From: an uncultured Pseudomonadales bacterium
GTDB taxonomy: Bacteria; Pseudomonadota; Gammaproteobacteria; Pseudomonadales; UBA7434
Direction of reading: 5' to 3'
DNA: 64,000 bases
NCBI GenBank assembly: GCA_943788835.1
Contig: CALSRU010000012.1
Span: forward strand, 62,001 to 126,000
How positions within the stretch are numbered: position 1 is the stretch's first letter; every line of letters starts with the position of its first letter. A program made the position numbers and the translations under genes. Positions 21,928 through 38,133 of the stretch are shown piece by piece. Below the pieces are notes generated by a model. It saw only the letters and a program-made list of their open reading frames with translations, had not been told where the DNA came from and searched no databases.

Positions 21928-22503
21928 ATGGGTAAACAAGCCACTAGTGATGTTTTAGCAACGCATTACAAAAGTATTATTGAGGGTGTCGGTGAAGATG
22001 TTTCGCGCGAGGGTTTGCTAGATACGCCAACTCGGGCAGCGAAGGCTATTTTGTCAATCACTAGCGGTTATGAAAAGTCGTTAGATGATATTGTTAACGG
22101 CGCTGTATTTGAGTCGGGCAGCGACGAAATGGTTTTGGTTAAAAGTATCGAGATGTATTCGGTTTGTGAGCACCATGTTTTGCCTTTCATCGGCACCTGC
22201 CATATTGGCTATATTCCTAATGGTAAGGTGCTGGGGCTGTCAAAGTTTGCGCGCATAGTTGACATGTACTCGCGCCGCTTGCAAATCCAAGAGCGTTTAA
22301 CTCGTGAAATTGCCGATGCCATTTTATCTGTAACCGGAGCAGCCGGGGTTGGTGTCATTGTTGAAGCAAAGCATATGTGCATGATGATGCGCGGTGTTGA
22401 GAAACAGCATTCAACGATGGGCACTTCAGTCATGCTGGGTGAATTCCGTGAATCTTATAATACGCGACAAGAATTTTTGCGTCTGCTAGGCGACATGGGT
22501 TGA
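21928..22503 (+). CDS. folE: GTP cyclohydrolase I
   Basis: FolE opens GTP to 7,8-dihydroneopterin triphosphate at the head of folate synthesis. [22 protein letters not shown] carries zinc-binding Cys and His residues, and [19 protein letters not shown] carries the second zinc Cys and the active-site segment. [23 protein letters not shown] is the family signature. Length (191) is typical of the short bacterial form. Its stop codon overlaps the proposed start of the next lipoprotein gene. Confidence 0.96.
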
Positions 22504-24284
22504 AATTTAAAAGCATGTCGCTCAGCCATTTTTGCAAGCTCACTTTCGGCGCATTGCTGTGCTTGAGTTTGGGCGCCTGCAGTTCTTGCGATAAGGCAAG
22601 CTGTGATGGCAGTGAAAACAATGGTGGCGGCACCGGAGGTGGTGACGATGGCCCATGCCCTGCCTTGGGTGATTTGACGGTTGAATTCGTTCAAGCGTTT
22701 GGCGGCGATACTTTTTGCGAAATAAGCGGCAGCTTGAGCACCAATGCAACACTCAAGGCCGATATAGATTGGCGACTTAATGGCACGGTTAGCGTGGGTG
22801 ATGAGGCGGGCAGTAGCGCCTCTTTGGTCATTGAGCCGGGCGCGACGCTCAAAGGAAATATTGCAGGCACAGTAACTGAGTATGTCTACATTTACCCGGG
22901 TTCTTCATTGCGTGCCGTGGGCACTGCTGATGCGCCGATTATTTTTTCATCTAACGATGATGGATACAGCCTTGAATCGGGTTTAGGTGAGTGGGGCGGT
23001 TTAATTATTGAAGACAGTGTAGCGGTGCAGACTAATGTTCAGCTCGAATACTTCGTGGTTGCCGAGGCGGGCGCGCCGGTCACCGTTGCAGGAAATGACT
23101 ACGCGGCTAACATTTCATTATATGGCGATCACGATACGTCTAAGTTGCGCTATGTGCAGTCACATGTGTCAGGCAGGGACGGTATCAGTATTACCGCTGC
23201 CGACAACGCTAATCTGGCACGACTAGAATGGTTGTTGGTGACTGGCGCGAATCGTGATGGCGTGCATTACACTAATTTTAGTGGCTTGATTAAAGATTTA
23301 TTAGTTATCCATAGTCCAGGGCTTTTCCCACCCGGTGTCGATCAAGGAGTTGGGGGCCGCGCGGGCATTCGAGCTGGCGGTAATCCTACAAAAGCTCCGT
23401 TGATTGTTAATGCCACATTGGTGGGCCGTGACACTTCGCAAGCATTGCCTGGTAACTTCAGTCGTGAATTTGGCTTGGTGTTTGAGGATGGCCTCAAGGC
23501 GGCACGCATAGCCAATATGGCAATTGCCAATTTTAGAAACGGTTGTTATGAAATTGGTTTGAATAATGAATTTGATGAGAATGTTGATTTATCGAGCATG
23601 GCGCTACTGACTCCAGCCGCTAACGATAGCAACTTTGTCGACGGCGTGCATTGCGTGAACGAAACAGAAGTTATCGATGGCTCCGGCGGATCCTTCAAAA
23701 CAGTGAGGTTTGGTGGCGGCGATATTCCTCCCGAGCTGCAGGGTTTAGGTGATGGCGAGGGCATCAGTTTTTACAGTGGTTTTAATAGCATAGATTTTTC
23801 TGGCGAAAGCGTTAGTGCAGGCAATGGCAATACCTTCACCTCGAGTTGGTTTGTTGACAGCATAGCTGGCCTTGCCAATCAAACCATAGATTTAAGGCGC
23901 TATAACGAAGGTGATACGAATGACAATGGTGTGGTCGACACGATTGATGATAATTTTTCACCGCTGTTTGATAGTGACTTAGACCCATTGTTTGGTGGAG
24001 TCTTCAAGCCCGCAGTATTTATTGATTTTGATTCAGAGTCGCCCAATTACTTGAACCCACTCGACCCCCAACCTACCGGCAGTTTTGTATGCGGGTTTGT
24101 GCAAGGCGTCAGTTCAGTCGAGTTTTATTGCGGGCCGGCAGGTTCATCGGGCGCTCTTACCTACGAAGGCTTCAGCCTCACAGTGGTGGGTGCGGTGCGC
24201 TCACCTCTAGATAGTGAAGCGACACAGTTTGACGGCTGGACAATACAAACGGATGAGGATGAAGGCTTTCGCCCATTACGGTAG
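22500..24284 (+). CDS. Large cysteine-rich lipoprotein with a probable beta-helix fold
   Basis: The signal peptide ends in the lipobox LGAC, followed by a Cys/Gly-rich linker with a GGGTGGG run. The body resembles right-handed beta-helix surface lipoproteins: [35 protein letters not shown] and [10 protein letters not shown] are strongly reminiscent of such proteins in Bacteroidetes and marine gammaproteobacteria. The TTG at 22500 overlaps folE by four bases; the ATG at 22515 is an alternative, but neither has a strong Shine-Dalgarno. A calcium-binding-type [14 protein letters not shown] segment appears near residue 480. Function is unknown; surface binding or adhesion is a guess. Confidence 0.7.
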
Positions 24285-27040: not shown

Positions 27041-27471
27041 GAACTTTTATCCGAGTTTGACAACCGCTGACGGTTGCGCGCAAGCGCAGCGTTGCATGTG
27101 TGGTTAACTGTGTGACAGCTCGTTATGGCCTAGAGCAGCACTGCATGTGTGGTGCGGCGGTTAATAAGTGCTTGTTGTGGCGCTTAGTTGGCAGCTATTG
27201 AGCCGGTATTTCAGCAACAGTGCGCGTAAGGCCTCGTTTTTACTCCGCTATAACGTCATTGAATGCCATACGGTTTAATCTAGACAGCTAATATAGTGCG
27301 CCTGAGCAAGATGGTCAATCATTGCGCGACAATTCCGAATACACAATATTACTGCCTGTCGATTAGTCAGGATGTCCCCTATAATCGCTCTGTTGAAATG
27401 GCCTATCAAAATTAAGGCACAGCCGGCGGCTATTGAATTGGCGGCAACCTAAAACGAGTAAAGGTGAAAAG
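27041..27471. other. Divergent intergenic region between the zapA operon and ygfB
   Basis: About 430 bases hold both divergent promoters. CAACCG-CTGA-CGGTTG (27061–27076) is a small perfect hairpin in the likely zapA leader. GCATGTGTGGT occurs twice, about 50 bases apart. No ORF of substance was seen. Confidence 0.5.
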
Positions 27472-28242
27472 TTGGATAACGCACAAAGAAGTACTCTCAA
27501 TGCTCCGCAAGATTTTGATGAGCTGGCCGACTGGCTGGTGACTATTGGCAGTCAGTTTTCACCGGCTGAATTACATGGTGCCTTGGTGGGAGCGTTGTCT
27601 GGTGCGATGCGTCTGCCGGCGCGTCAATGGGCGCTGTTTGGGCTGGCGGTCACTGGCGCCGATCAGCGTTTAGATGAGGGTCAGTTTGAAGAAGCTATAG
27701 GCATACTGGGAGGACTGGCGAGTACACAGCTTGAGCAGCTCACCGATATTGAAATGGCTTTTCAGTTGTTTCTACCCGATGATGACCATGAAATTGAGCA
27801 GCGTACTGAGAGTTTGGCTCATTGGTGTAAAGGTTTTTTGGGCGGTTTTGCCGAGGCTCGAGCGCATACGGGTAAAGCGGCCAAAGATCAGTCGAAGCCT
27901 GAGTTAACGCCGTCGGTAGTAGAGGCCTTGCAAGATATGGCGGCTATTGCGCAAGCCAGTGCTCAGGGCGCTGTGGCGTCGCAAGACGATGGCGATCATC
28001 AGCCCGAAGAGGCGGCTGACTGGGACGAAGAGAATGATCTATTCGATCCGCTTGCGGTTGAGGCCCCTCGCGAGAGCACTGGCGACGAGGAAGCCGAGCG
28101 CGATTATGTGGAGGTGATTGAGTACTTGCGCCTTGCCGCATTAACGGTCTTTACCGAACATGGCTGGGTTGAGGCAACACCAGTGAGCAAAACTTCACCG
28201 AAGCCAGCACCGCCTGCGGATAACGAGCGTACATTACATTAG
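27472..28242 (+). CDS. ygfB: UPF0149 family protein YgfB
   Basis: The product shares the helical YgfB/YecA core: FSPAELHGALVGALSGAM near the start, FQLFLPDDDHEIEQRTESLAHWCKGFLGGF in the middle and RDYVEVIEYLRLAALTVF near the end. It closes with the conserved TLH. An acidic insert of roughly 70 residues separates the middle and last parts and makes it longer (256) than E. coli YgfB (about 190). TTG 27472 was chosen because AAAGGTGAAAAG lies directly before it; the track TTG at 27433 has no such site. ygfB–pepP–ubi is conserved synteny. In Pseudomonas a YgfB homologue affects ampDh3 expression, but its role here is unknown. Confidence 0.88.
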   Translation: MDNAQRSTLNAPQDFDELADWLVTIGSQFSPAELHGALVGALSGAMRLPARQWALFGLAVTGADQRLDEGQFEEAIGILGGLASTQLEQLTDIEMAFQLFLPDDDHEIEQRTESLAHWCKGFLGGFAEARAHTGKAAKDQSKPELTPSVVEALQDMAAIAQASAQGAVASQDDGDHQPEEAADWDEENDLFDPLAVEAPRESTGDEEAERDYVEVIEYLRLAALTVFTEHGWVEATPVSKTSPKPAPPADNERTLH

Positions 28243-28319: not shown

Positions 28320-29966
28320 ATGCCTACATCGAATAACTACAAGCCAAAGATTACTCCCAGTATTTCTCGCCAAGAATTTGCTAGGCGTCGTCGTAATTTA
28401 ATGCAGCAGATGGAAGTTGACAGTATTGCCATTGTGCCTTCAGCCTCAATGGTCATTCGCAACCGTGACGCTGAATTTAAATTTCGCCAAGACAGCGATT
28501 TTCATTATTTGACCGGTTTTAATGAGCCAGAAGCGGTGTTGGTGTTAATACCCGGGCGGGCGCATGGTGAGTGTTTACTATTTTGTCGTGAGCGTGATCC
28601 CGAGCGCGAGCTGTGGGATGGCTATCGGCAGGGGCCGGAGGGCGTTGTTGAAAATTTTGGCGCCGATGATGCCTTCCCTATCAGCGACATTGACGATATT
28701 TTGCCAGGCTTGCTAGAAAGCCGAGAGCGCGTTTATTACGCAATGGGTAAGTGGCCGGATTTTGATCGCCAGGTAATGGATTGGGTTAACGTATTGCGCG
28801 CCAATGCGCGAGCTGGTGCGCATCCGCCAGGTGAGTTTTTGGATTTGGATCACCTCTTACACGACTTGCGGCTTTACAAAAGCGCTGCCGAACTGCGCGT
28901 TATGCGCGCAGCCGCCTGTATATCGGCCGAGGCACACATGCGCGCCATGGCAAAGTGCCGGCCGGGGATGATGGAGTATGAGCTGGAGGCGGAATATCTC
29001 TACGCCTTTGGAACCGCTGGTGCTCAGCATCCGGCGTACAATTCAATCGTAGGCGCTGGTGTTAACGGCTGTATTTTGCACTATGTTGAAAACGACAGCA
29101 TGATTCGAGATGGCGACTTGGTATTGGTGGATGCCGGTTGCGAGCTCAATTGCTATGCATCAGATATTACGCGTACTTTTCCGGCTAACGGCAAGTTCAG
29201 CAAGGCCCAGCAAGCTCTGTATGAGGTGGTTTTGGATGCTCAACTCGAAGCTATTAAAGCAGCCGTGCCGGGTAACCATTGGAACGAGCCGCACGATGTG
29301 ACGGTGAGCGTCATCACGCAAGGCTTGATTGATTTAAAGCTGTTATCGGGTGAGCTCAACGAGTTAGTTGAGACCGAAGCTTACAAGCCTTTTTACATGC
29401 ATCGAGCGGGACATTGGCTGGGTATGGATGTGCATGATGTAGGTGATTATAAAGTTCATAATGAATGGCGGGTGCTCGAGCCGGGTATGGTGATGACCAT
29501 AGAGCCGGGCATTTATGTGGCGGCAGCCAATACTAAAGTAGCAGCCAAGTGGCGAGGTATTGGAATACGTATTGAAGATGACATCGCGTTGACGCAGTCG
29601 GGTAATGACGTTTTGACCCGCGATGTTTGTAAAAGTGTGGCCGATATTGAGGCGCATATGCGTCAGTCGCATGCAATCCCCGCTGTTTCAGGTTCCGCCA
29701 AAGCCAAAATCAAAGCTGCGAGCAAGAAAGCAACTGCTAAGACGGTAGCCACCGCTCGGACTAAAGCCACGGTTGAGAGTAAAGCGAAGCCCAAAGTGAA
29801 ATCTCATGCGTCGTTAAAATCTAAAGCGGCGTCAAAGTCTAAGTTAAAAGCCAAGGCTGCATCCAGCAGCAAGACAAAGCCGACTAAAAAAACATTGCCT
29901 AAGAAAAAATCGGTGTCGGTGGTAAAAAAATCTCCACCTAAGCCTCGTTTGAGAAAGCGTAAATAA
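28320..29966 (+). CDS. pepP: Xaa-Pro aminopeptidase P with a basic, histone H1-like C-terminal tail
   Basis: PepP removes N-terminal residues that precede proline. Residues 1–448 cover the whole family length (E. coli 441), with the creatinase-like N-domain (RQDSDFHYLTGFNEPEAVL) and pita-bread C-domain. Metal ligands lie in LVDAGCELNCYASDITRTF, HWLGMDVHDVGDY, MTIEPGIYV and IGIRIEDDI. After about residue 450 comes a tail of about 98 residues made almost wholly of Lys, Ala, Ser, Thr and Pro (AKIKAASKKATAKT and similar), ending PRLRKRK. This resembles histone H1-like or AlgP-type DNA-binding tails and is not part of normal PepP. The reading frame is continuous, so it is translated unless the protein is processed. 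Confidence 0.92.
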   Translation: MPTSNNYKPKITPSISRQEFARRRRNLMQQMEVDSIAIVPSASMVIRNRDAEFKFRQDSDFHYLTGFNEPEAVLVLIPGRAHGECLLFCRERDPERELWDGYRQGPEGVVENFGADDAFPISDIDDILPGLLESRERVYYAMGKWPDFDRQVMDWVNVLRANARAGAHPPGEFLDLDHLLHDLRLYKSAAELRVMRAAACISAEAHMRAMAKCRPGMMEYELEAEYLYAFGTAGAQHPAYNSIVGAGVNGCILHYVENDSMIRDGDLVLVDAGCELNCYASDITRTFPANGKFSKAQQALYEVVLDAQLEAIKAAVPGNHWNEPHDVTVSVITQGLIDLKLLSGELNELVETEAYKPFYMHRAGHWLGMDVHDVGDYKVHNEWRVLEPGMVMTIEPGIYVAAANTKVAAKWRGIGIRIEDDIALTQSGNDVLTRDVCKSVADIEAHMRQSHAIPAVSGSAKAKIKAASKKATAKTVATARTKATVESKAKPKVKSHASLKSKAASKSKLKAKAASSSKTKPTKKTLPKKKSVSVVKKSPPKPRLRKRK

Positions 29967-30016: not shown

Positions 30017-31282
30017 ATGCGTCATGACTTTGACGTCATTATTGTCGGCGCTGGTATTGCTGGCAGCGCTCTTGCTTGCAGCCTGAGTTCAGGCTTTTAT
30101 GCCGGCACCAAGGGCTTGCGTATTGCCTTAGTTGAGGCGCATAAAGTTTCCGACAAGTTGCCCGCTCAAGGCGGCGAGGTTAAAGGCTTCGATGCTCGCG
30201 TGAGTGCGTTGACGCGCGCATCGATCGACTATTTTGAAAAGCTTGGAGTATGGTCGGCAATGACGGCCCTGCGCAGCTGCCCGTTTGTGGGCATGCAAGT
30301 TTGGGATGCGCGTGGTACGGGCGAAATCAATTTCGATGCGCAGGCCATGGGTGTAGGTTATTTAGGCCATATTGTTGAAAACCGGGTGATCACCGCGGCC
30401 TTAATGAGTGCTGTGCGTGAGCAGCGAGTTGAAATATTAGATGGCTGTGCCGTATCGTCCATTGTGTTGCCTAAAGCCGGCGAACGCCAGCAGGCTGATG
30501 GTGGTGCTCAGGTGACGCTGAACAACGGCTCTAGGATGACAGCGGATTTGGTTGTGGCGGCCGACGGGGCGCATTCACCTTGTCGCCAAATGCTCGGAAT
30601 GCCAGTGCGTGCCTGGGATTACCAGCAAGATGCCATTGTATGTACGGTCGCTGTTAGTCAGCCCCATCAATATACCGCTTGGCAAACTTTTACTGGCACA
30701 GGGCCATTGGCATATTTGCCGTTGATGACTGAGCCGAAATCAAGTGACCACGCAGGTCCACACTATTGCTCTATCGTTTGGTCGCAGACGCGCGAGCGAG
30801 CAGAGCAGCTGCTGGCTTTGCCCGAAGCTGAGTTTTGTCAGCAGTTGGCGAGTGCGCTGGAATTTCGATTAGGTGATGTTGTGGCGGTGTCTCGGCGTCA
30901 ATCTTTTTCTTTGCAGCAGCAGCATGCCATCGACTACGTACATGAAGGCTTTGCCTTGATTGCTGATGCGGCGCATACGATTCATCCGCTGGCCGGGCAG
31001 GGCATTAACCTGGGTATTGGCGATGTGCAAGAGTTGGCGCAGACTATTGCCATGGCCACTGCTGACGGCGCGCCGCTCGGAGAGCTTGCTCGCCTGCAGC
31101 GATATCAGCGCGCGCGCAAAACTGATAATCTCGCTATGATGGCTGTGGTTGAGGGCTTTAAGCGTTTGTATGAGCCGGTACCGTTGCCAGTCATGTGGTT
31201 GCGCAACTGGGGTATGCAGCAAGTGAATAGCCTGCCATGGCTTAAAAATAAAATCCTTAAATACGCAATGGGGTTGGGCTAG
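30017..31282 (+). CDS. ubiI: FAD-dependent ubiquinone hydroxylase, UbiI-type
   Basis: The 421-residue flavoprotein monooxygenase hydroxylates the ubiquinone ring. The Rossmann motif DVIIVGAGIAGSALACSL, the DG motif VVAADGAHSPCRQ and the FAD motif ALIADAAHTIHPLAGQGINLG are all present. GMQVWDARGTGEINFDA followed by YLGHIVENRVI closely follows E. coli UbiI/VisC (GMEVWD … LGHIVEN) rather than UbiH. In E. coli the order is ygfB–pepP–ubiH–ubiI; here only one enzyme is present and pepP is followed directly by it, so it may cover more than one step or ubiH may be elsewhere. Confidence 0.85.
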   Translation: MRHDFDVIIVGAGIAGSALACSLSSGFYAGTKGLRIALVEAHKVSDKLPAQGGEVKGFDARVSALTRASIDYFEKLGVWSAMTALRSCPFVGMQVWDARGTGEINFDAQAMGVGYLGHIVENRVITAALMSAVREQRVEILDGCAVSSIVLPKAGERQQADGGAQVTLNNGSRMTADLVVAADGAHSPCRQMLGMPVRAWDYQQDAIVCTVAVSQPHQYTAWQTFTGTGPLAYLPLMTEPKSSDHAGPHYCSIVWSQTRERAEQLLALPEAEFCQQLASALEFRLGDVVAVSRRQSFSLQQQHAIDYVHEGFALIADAAHTIHPLAGQGINLGIGDVQELAQTIAMATADGAPLGELARLQRYQRARKTDNLAMMAVVEGFKRLYEPVPLPVMWLRNWGMQQVNSLPWLKNKILKYAMGLG

Positions 31283-36039: not shown

Positions 36040-38133
36040 ATGCCCTCCAAAGAAATCCCCTACATAGAAAAAGAGCTTAGCTGGCTCTCTTTTAATCAGC
36101 GCGTCCTACAAGAAGCCGCAGATCAGTCGGTACCCATCATCGAGCGGGTGAGATTTCTTGGTATTTTTTCAAATAACTTAGACGAGTTTTTTCGCGTACG
36201 CGTGGCTGATGTCAAGCGTCGTTTGATTATAAAATCTGAAAGTGGGCAGGCAGCATCTTCCAAGCATTTACTCACTAAAATTCAAGGTAAGGTCTTACAG
36301 CTTCAAGAGCAGTTTGATAAGATTTATCTTGACGTTATTAAAGGCTTGGCCAAGAGCCATATCTTTTTGATTAGCGAGCATCAGCTAACTGATGAGCAGG
36401 GCGAATGGTTGCGCCAATATTTTAGAAATAAATTACTGCGCTATGTAGCCCCAATTATCATCAAGCCAGGTGCTGATTTAACTAAAGTTTTAAAAGACGA
36501 TCTGACCTACCTGATCACCCAAATGGTCAGTCAAGGTTCTACTCTTTACGCAGCTATTGAAGTGCCCACTGACGATACGCCGCGTTTTATCGAACTGCCA
36601 AAGGAAAAGGGTAGCCAGCGAAAAAATTTGATAATGTTAGATAATATTATTAGATTTTGTGCGGATGAGATTTTTCGACCATTTTTCAACTACGATCATT
36701 GTCAGTCTTATTCAATGAAAATAACGTGTGACGCTGAATATGGTGTCACTGATGATATTGATTTATCGCGAGTTGAGCAGATGTCAGAGGGCTTGAAGCA
36801 GCGCCTCACCGCTGCTCCAGTTCGATTTGTTTATGATCGGGAGATGCCTGAGTCCATGGTAGGATTGCTAAAGGCCCGTTTAGGTATTACTGGTCTCGAT
36901 TCAATCGTGCCGGGCGGCCGTTATCATAACTTCAGAGATTTTATTGACTTTCCGAATGTGGGACGTGGCTATCTGGTCTATCCGAAAATTCCTGCCTTAA
37001 CCTCGAGTGCGCTAGATTCTGGGCCAAATATATTTTCAGCGATTCGTCAAAAAGACGTTTTACTTTATTACCCCTACTACCGTTTTAAATACCTTACGGA
37101 CTTTTTGCGTCAGGCGGCACTTGACCCGTTAGTAGAAGAAATAAAAATATCGATCTATCGGCTCGCAAAAAATAGTCGAGTCATAAAATCGCTTATTGAT
37201 GCTGTTGAAAATGGCAAGAGCGTCACTGTTTTTATTGAACTGGCTGCACGCTTCGATGAGGAGGCAAATATAGAGTGGGCTAAGGTGTTGACTGATGCTA
37301 ATGTCAAGGTTGAGTTTGGTATACCATCACTTAAGGGCCATGCAAAAATAATTAGCGTGAAGCGGCGCGAAGAGGGAGGAATTATTCATTATGTCCATGT
37401 TGGCACGGGCAACTTCAATGAGAAAACGGCAAAGATATATACCGATTTTTCTCTATTTACTTGCCGAGAAGAAATTGCCGGCGAAGTGTTGAAGGTTTTT
37501 GATTTTATGGTGCGCGGCTATAAAGATTATCAATTTGAGCATTTAATGGTGTCACCAAAAAATGCGCGTGAAACTATTGTGATGTTAATTGATAACGAAA
37601 TAAAATCAGCATCAATGGGTGAAGATGCATTCATACAAATAAAAGTAAATAATATTGTTGACTACAATATTATAAAAAAATTGTATGAGGCGAGTAACGC
37701 TGGTGTGAAGATTAAAATTATTGTGCGTGGTATCTGCTCATTGGTGCCTGGCTTAAATGGATTTAGTGAAAACATCTCGGTTATCTCAGTGGTTGATCGT
37801 TTTCTTGAGCACCCTCGAGCGTTTATTTTTTGTAATGGCGGTCAAGCGCGGGTATACATTTCTTCGGCTGACTGGATGTCTCGAAATCTCGATCGGCGTG
37901 TTGAAGTGGGCTGCCCTATTTATGAAGAAAGCTTAAAAAGAAAAATAATAGATATTTTTAACTTGCAGTGGTCTGATACCACTAAGGCTCGACTCATAGA
38001 CCAAGAACAAGCGAATCAATATAGATTGCGTGGCAATAAAAAGAAAATTCGCTCGCAAGTGCAAATTTATGAGTATTTAAAGACGATCGAACAGCGTGAG
38101 CGTGTGGCACTCACTAAGCAGCGAGACTTATGA
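36040..38133 (+). CDS. ppk: Polyphosphate kinase 1
   Basis: PPK1 polymerises the gamma-phosphate of ATP into polyphosphate, reversibly. The product opens ELSWLSFNQRVLQEAADQSVPIIERVRFLGIFSNNLDEFFRVR, the invariant N-domain. The autophosphorylated histidine is His 434 in SLKGHAKI, and the second catalytic histidine is His 453 in YVHVGTGNFNEKTAKIYTDFSL. These match E. coli His 435 and 454. Length (697) is typical. The stop codon overlaps the ppx start by four bases (ATGA), so the synthesis and degradation enzymes are coupled. No Pho-box was identified. Confidence 0.96.
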   Translation: MPSKEIPYIEKELSWLSFNQRVLQEAADQSVPIIERVRFLGIFSNNLDEFFRVRVADVKRRLIIKSESGQAASSKHLLTKIQGKVLQLQEQFDKIYLDVIKGLAKSHIFLISEHQLTDEQGEWLRQYFRNKLLRYVAPIIIKPGADLTKVLKDDLTYLITQMVSQGSTLYAAIEVPTDDTPRFIELPKEKGSQRKNLIMLDNIIRFCADEIFRPFFNYDHCQSYSMKITCDAEYGVTDDIDLSRVEQMSEGLKQRLTAAPVRFVYDREMPESMVGLLKARLGITGLDSIVPGGRYHNFRDFIDFPNVGRGYLVYPKIPALTSSALDSGPNIFSAIRQKDVLLYYPYYRFKYLTDFLRQAALDPLVEEIKISIYRLAKNSRVIKSLIDAVENGKSVTVFIELAARFDEEANIEWAKVLTDANVKVEFGIPSLKGHAKIISVKRREEGGIIHYVHVGTGNFNEKTAKIYTDFSLFTCREEIAGEVLKVFDFMVRGYKDYQFEHLMVSPKNARETIVMLIDNEIKSASMGEDAFIQIKVNNIVDYNIIKKLYEASNAGVKIKIIVRGICSLVPGLNGFSENISVISVVDRFLEHPRAFIFCNGGQARVYISSADWMSRNLDRRVEVGCPIYEESLKRKIIDIFNLQWSDTTKARLIDQEQANQYRLRGNKKKIRSQVQIYEYLKTIEQRERVALTKQRDL

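Follow-up and report, generated by a model that had tools for sequence, protein, structure and literature searches.

A Lys-rich, predicted disordered C-terminal tail on aminopeptidase P in a genus of Pseudomonadales

Aminopeptidase P (PepP, family M24B) is a widespread bacterial enzyme that trims Xaa-Pro N-termini and whose cellular role is poorly defined; in E. coli it is a homotetramer. An aminopeptidase that binds DNA is known in PepA, the M17 leucyl aminopeptidase, which differs from the protein described here in its unrelated fold and family, in its folded DNA-binding surface and in the lack of a polycationic tail. In eukaryotes, MetAP2 and Ebp1/Arx1 join the catalytic pita-bread fold to a disordered, Lys-rich extension of low conservation and varying length, and that of MAP2, which shares the catalytic fold of PepP, is basic, variable and N-terminal, and contacts rRNA ES27L (PMC10808355). 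Among bacterial proteins, Lys repeats stabilise the enzyme-DNA complex of Streptomyces TopA (PMC7398561), the KPAA repeats of AlgP bind DNA while AlgP in the cell associates with polyphosphate granules (PMC9239181), and in a prokaryote-wide survey Lys-rich regions of low complexity were associated with proteins that bind DNA (PMC6821194).

Here we analyse a PepP with an extension of this kind, encoded in a 64,000-nt stretch of DNA (the window) from an uncultured Pseudomonadales bacterium. It shares with MetAP2, Ebp1 and Arx1 the combination of fold and variable basic extension, and differs from them in being a bacterial X-Pro aminopeptidase with a C-terminal tail, for which ribosome binding is a possibility. 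An ordinary PepP core is joined here to a tail of a familiar type; the unexpected part is such a module on PepP, and our literature search for a PepP with a Lys-rich extension found no paper.

An ordinary PepP core continued by a basic tail

The protein is encoded by a single unbroken frame of 548 codons with an ATG start (28320..29966, forward strand; 548 aa), present in one copy in the whole 2.76-Mb genome. The features of the locus are as follows.

27433..28242, + strand: UPF0149 (YgfB-like) gene, upstream neighbour (PF03695, E = 5.6e-23)
28320..29660, + strand: PepP (Xaa-Pro aminopeptidase) core, residues 1-447 (Pfam, NCBIfam equivalog, PDB alignments)
29661..29963, + strand: C-terminal Lys/Ala/Ser/Thr/Pro-rich tail, residues 448-548 (ORF, comparison, AlphaFold2)
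29964..29966, + strand: stop codon TAA of the fused ORF
30017..31282, + strand: UbiH-like FAD-dependent monooxygenase gene, downstream neighbour (PF01494, E = 3.6e-26)

The core consists of a short N-terminal extension (residues 1-13), an AMP_N domain (20-139) and the M24 catalytic domain (195-425), with Pfam matches above the curated cut-off (PF05195, 140 bits; PF00557, 216 bits) and a score of 506.6 against the NCBIfam equivalog NF008131 'Xaa-Pro aminopeptidase' (cut-off 465). Alignment to solved aminopeptidases P (PDB 5wze, E = 2.9e-205; E. coli PepP 1a16, E = 7.4e-129) stops at about residue 447-452 and places all five metal ligands, D271, D282, H365, E395 and E419, at positions that are invariant across the core alignment (A1); their E. 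coli counterparts are D260, D271, H354, E383 and E406. By these domains and ligands the protein is an aminopeptidase P (PepP, M24B), which is probably active as a peptidase and presumably tetrameric. Domain order, metal ligands and the ygfB-pepP-ubiH neighbourhood, the conventional one for pepP, are all those of bacterial PepP. However, solved PepPs end at a helix near residue 440, whereas the window protein adds 101 residues predicted to be disordered, and the UbiH-like gene begins 50 bp 3' of this tail. The UPF0149 protein encoded directly 5' of the basic-tailed PepP (27433-28242, +) itself carries a long acidic C-terminal extension past its Pfam domain.

The tail (about 96-101 aa depending on where it is taken to begin) is 29% Lys, has a net charge of +33, is devoid of aromatic residues and Cys, and runs in the frame of the core to a C-terminal PRLRKRK followed by the stop. 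The original prediction of a full-length PepP with exactly this in-frame tail was confirmed by the ORF, by the core alignment and by all 12 genomes of the genus. Neither a stop nor a frameshift lies at the junction, and a frameshift or misassembly there is ruled out by the single frame seen in 12 species. Likewise, a separate tail gene or distinct tail protein from an internal start, named beforehand as an alternative, can be dismissed: the in-frame candidates for a start within the tail are just GTG or TTG codons lacking a clear Shine-Dalgarno sequence, and a search of the genome for another copy of the tail was negative.

AlphaFold2 predicts the tail to be disordered, with pLDDT of about 25-36 and no secondary structure over residues 454-548, in a model of the whole protein that is reliable for the catalytic domain only because the alignment is shallow. 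Its repeats are loose, Tandem Repeats Finder recovering one array only (18 bp, 2.4 copies). As for the proposed histone H1 likeness, the tail does have the Lys/Ala/Pro/Ser/Thr-rich, highly basic and predicted disordered character of H1-like proteins; a recognised H1 domain it has not, since searches of Pfam and NCBIfam returned no significant family match, whether to HC2 or to any other nucleic-acid-binding family, while the same genus's own H1-like protein matches PF07382. On these profile searches, the tail resembles H1 in composition only. With the tails of AlgP, PhaF and HC2-type proteins it shares low complexity in the same five residues, length variation and predicted disorder, and it differs from them in the missing HC2 match and in its carrier, a metabolic enzyme instead of a nucleoid or granule protein.

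Distribution and evolution of the tail

A Lys-rich PepP tail is present in 12/12 congeneric genomes, with lengths of 48, 90, 101 (window), 107, 123, 127, 143, 149, 159, 179, 210 and 223 aa, the 90-aa figure coming from a gene split over two contigs (G009) and the 127-aa figure from one cut by a contig end (G005). The longest belongs to G004, the shortest to G003, and G002 carries 179 aa. The suspected length variation is thus real, with in-frame indels even in the closest pair, whose tails measure 101 and 107 aa. Accordingly, PepP frames measure 516-673 aa in the genus vs about 434-500 aa in almost all other families among 58 relatives searched. The nearest sister families have no tail: their PepP ends at the usual helix, and ubiH starts almost at once in three of the four checked. 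Because sister pepP genes end at the same point with ubiH usually a few bases on, the tail represents an insertion, not an old spacer that came to be read through. Of the scenario in which relatives lack the tail and a frameshift created it here, the first half holds for distant relatives and the second does not. The genus is monophyletic (support 100/100), so one gain on its stem suffices.

Between core and tail, G010 and the clade above it, eight species in all, carry a conserved linker, DPAQ[IVM]DFI, and then an acidic or mixed stretch ahead of the Lys repeats; the linker, possibly a short binding motif, is missing from the basal lineages, the window's PepP included. The closest named records are uncultured Pseudomonadales/Cellvibrionales MAGs. 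Basic extensions also occur at the other end of the protein, in G003 (N-terminal extension MVKSKVGKKSKMAIKKTSK...), which has the shortest C-terminal tail, and in a PepP of another family (G027) with no C-terminal tail. Two sets of candidates were discarded: hits that tblastn gave for the tail in Woeseiaceae, Steroidobacter and other taxa lie outside the PepP frame, and PepPs there end normally; long PepP open frames in other genomes of the class reflect upstream read-through of the frame. Nor is the tail a general feature of M24 enzymes in the genus, given that MAP, its other M24 enzyme, ends normally and is tail-less in all nine copies read.

The tail evolves quickly in sequence and slowly in charge. 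Between close species dN/dS is 0.03-0.04 in the core and about 0.11-0.57 in the tail, where in-frame indels are frequent, and Lys columns are conserved at 78-96% vs 38-75% for other residues. We compared this with simulations that apply the observed synonymous divergence without selection and that omit repeat slippage, which can add Lys. In the same pairs, Lys retention was 23-56% under neutrality vs 80-96% observed, an alignment-based comparison that favours Lys-Lys matches; net charge, which is independent of alignment, averaged 18-32 in the simulations vs 35, 50, 46, 46 and 88 in the observed partners. A stop-free tail survived in just 0-9% of neutral runs per pair. In terms of sequence evolution, then, the conserved feature of the tail is charge and not sequence, and the tail looks like a disordered polycationic appendage under selection.

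These data also bear on whether the tail is a tolerated, functionless ornament, arisen by stop loss or insertion and then extended by slippage in AAG/AAA-rich repeats. Large length changes, low sequence conservation and in-frame indels between close relatives are what such an origin would leave, and part of the length may indeed be slippage given how poorly the sequence is conserved. However, neutral drift would add stops and lose charge, whereas all 12 congeners retain a stop-free tail with Lys and net charge above the neutral expectation, which argues that the tail is not there by chance; together with its repeated gain, described below, this makes the ornament unlikely.

We surveyed 392 genomes from the order and 369 from the class with a query made of the PepP core end plus the Lys-repeat tail. 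Among the matches listed, at least four other gammaproteobacterial families have Lys-rich PepP tails, 18-57 aa long: f143 (57, 41 and 18 aa; tailed in 3/3 genomes read), f93 (37 and 27 aa), f16 (31 aa, vs just 8 aa in a congener) and f173 (21 aa). In 75 GTDB PepP loci, no tail above 24 aa was found outside the genus among the matches listed. On the core tree, the tailed PepPs outside the genus need five state changes, and AU tests rejected both holding all tailed rows together (p-AU 3e-68) and uniting the f16 case with the window genus (p-AU 0.00075). On these trees the Lys-rich PepP tail has at least three independent gains. Genus-wide fixation and this repeated origin raise the interest of the tail somewhat.

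Lys-rich modules in the genus and candidate partners of the tail

Similar modules sit elsewhere in these genomes. In 12/12 genus genomes TopA has Lys-rich repeats at its C-terminus, most of them AKKK-type (L130-L142; TopA of G000 at G000:C4:279128), an architecture known mainly from actinobacterial TopA. At least seven genomes encode a Lys-repeat protein with a C-terminal SutA RNA-polymerase-binding domain (L143-L149), whose representative in the window genome (L146, G000:C4:474409-475149) matches Pfam HC2 (PF07382). Such modules thus sit here on nucleoid and transcription proteins, in a list that comes from similarity searches alone and is a lower bound for the Lys-tailed proteins of the genome. 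The Lys-repeat/SutA-domain protein is strongly length-variable in the genus, with a much reduced repeat region in G010; an H1-like SutA is unusual. Both Streptomyces TopA and the genus TopA resemble the tailed PepP in bearing C-terminal AKKK-type repeats on an enzyme, with the difference that the substrate of TopA is DNA and the known substrates of PepP are peptides. Capture of the tail from topA was rejected: DNA similarity between the two tails is short and weak, reaching at best 78% over 99 bp for tails from different genomes, as shared Lys codons could produce, and therefore leaves a common origin of the modules unsupported.

Polyphosphate was considered as the partner of the tail, as proposed for AlgP, whose H1-like KPAA tail associates with polyphosphate granules (PMC9239181). 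The synthetic enzyme PPK1 is encoded in four of the 12 genus genomes (G000, G007, G009 and G010) and PPK2 in one of those four. Neither was found in the other eight, four of which are at least 91% complete, including G004 and G002, so that polyphosphate synthesis in the same organisms fails as a genus-wide rule and a general role for polyphosphate is most improbable. That the tail is anchored electrostatically to the inner membrane or the acidic Ubi complex is also very unlikely: polybasic tails can bind anionic lipids and other polyanions, and pepP-ubiH adjacency is kept, but tail-less families have that adjacency too and the window tail, with no aromatic residue, offers no hydrophobic anchor.

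Retention of Lys and charge, the parallels with other repeat tails and the weakened case for polyphosphate together favour nucleic acid. We consider it fairly probable that the selected, disordered polycationic tail tethers tetrameric PepP to nucleic acid, be it nucleoid DNA or rRNA/polysomes, and so localises X-Pro trimming; nucleic-acid binding and the localising effect are plausible by analogy with the repeat-tailed proteins above. A full-length, probably active PepP has gained a long, predicted disordered polycationic C-terminal tail that could act as a multivalent electrostatic tether, multivalent since PepP forms tetramers, with four tails and about +130 charges per homotetramer of the window protein. 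These tails would then keep PepP on a nucleic-acid polyanion of the cytoplasm, nucleoid or rRNA/polysomes, and tethering would localise its activity.

Nucleoid and ribosome are inseparable as targets in these data. In the ribosomal version of the tether, PepP would be held on rRNA near nascent chains and trim X-Pro N-termini soon after MetAP. In MAP2 and its relatives, of the same pita-bread fold, charged extensions or inserts mediate docking at the tunnel exit and the hold on ES27L (PMC10808355), the positively charged loops of E. coli MetAP are believed to face the ribosome (PMC11300795), and the substrates of PepP are N-termini. However, the PepP tail varies and sits at the C-terminus, MAP in this genus is tail-less, and the other carriers of Lys modules in the genus are DNA or RNA-polymerase proteins. 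Bacteria are not known to have ES27L, which also counts against this version. The charged N-terminal extension and insert domain of MAP2/Ebp1 are likewise absent, the basic region being C-terminal and the core aligning end-to-end with PepP with no large insert. On balance we regard ribosome tethering as a doubtful candidate.

Going further, in several bacterial lineages a Lys-rich C-terminal tail may have made PepP, each time independently, an N-terminal processing enzyme bound to nucleic acid or to the ribosome, a conjecture that we hold to be rather less likely still. If true, bacteria would have arrived by convergence at an equivalent of the charged extension of eukaryotic MetAP2, and X-Pro trimming would be implied as a co-translational step following deformylase and MetAP. 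More broadly, this case shows bacterial H1-like low-complexity tails to be portable, occurring beyond nucleoid proteins and preserving charge over sequence. A lineage tying PepP to a polyanion, together with the recurrence of that step in other lineages, would offer a natural experiment on where PepP acts.

Other observations concern further proteins of the genome. A large protein, FimV-like by eye, has long (AEAQAK)n repeats in G000; in its near relative G007 these are very different in both sequence and length (L168, G000:C4:494452-494994, and L169). Within the window, positions 22500-24284 (+) hold a 594-aa ORF that resembles a lipoprotein, is rich in Cys, Gly and Asp at its N-terminus and matches no Pfam family, and a match to the middle domain of PPK1 (polyphosphate kinase) lies at 36394-36951 (+), about 7 kb downstream of pepP.
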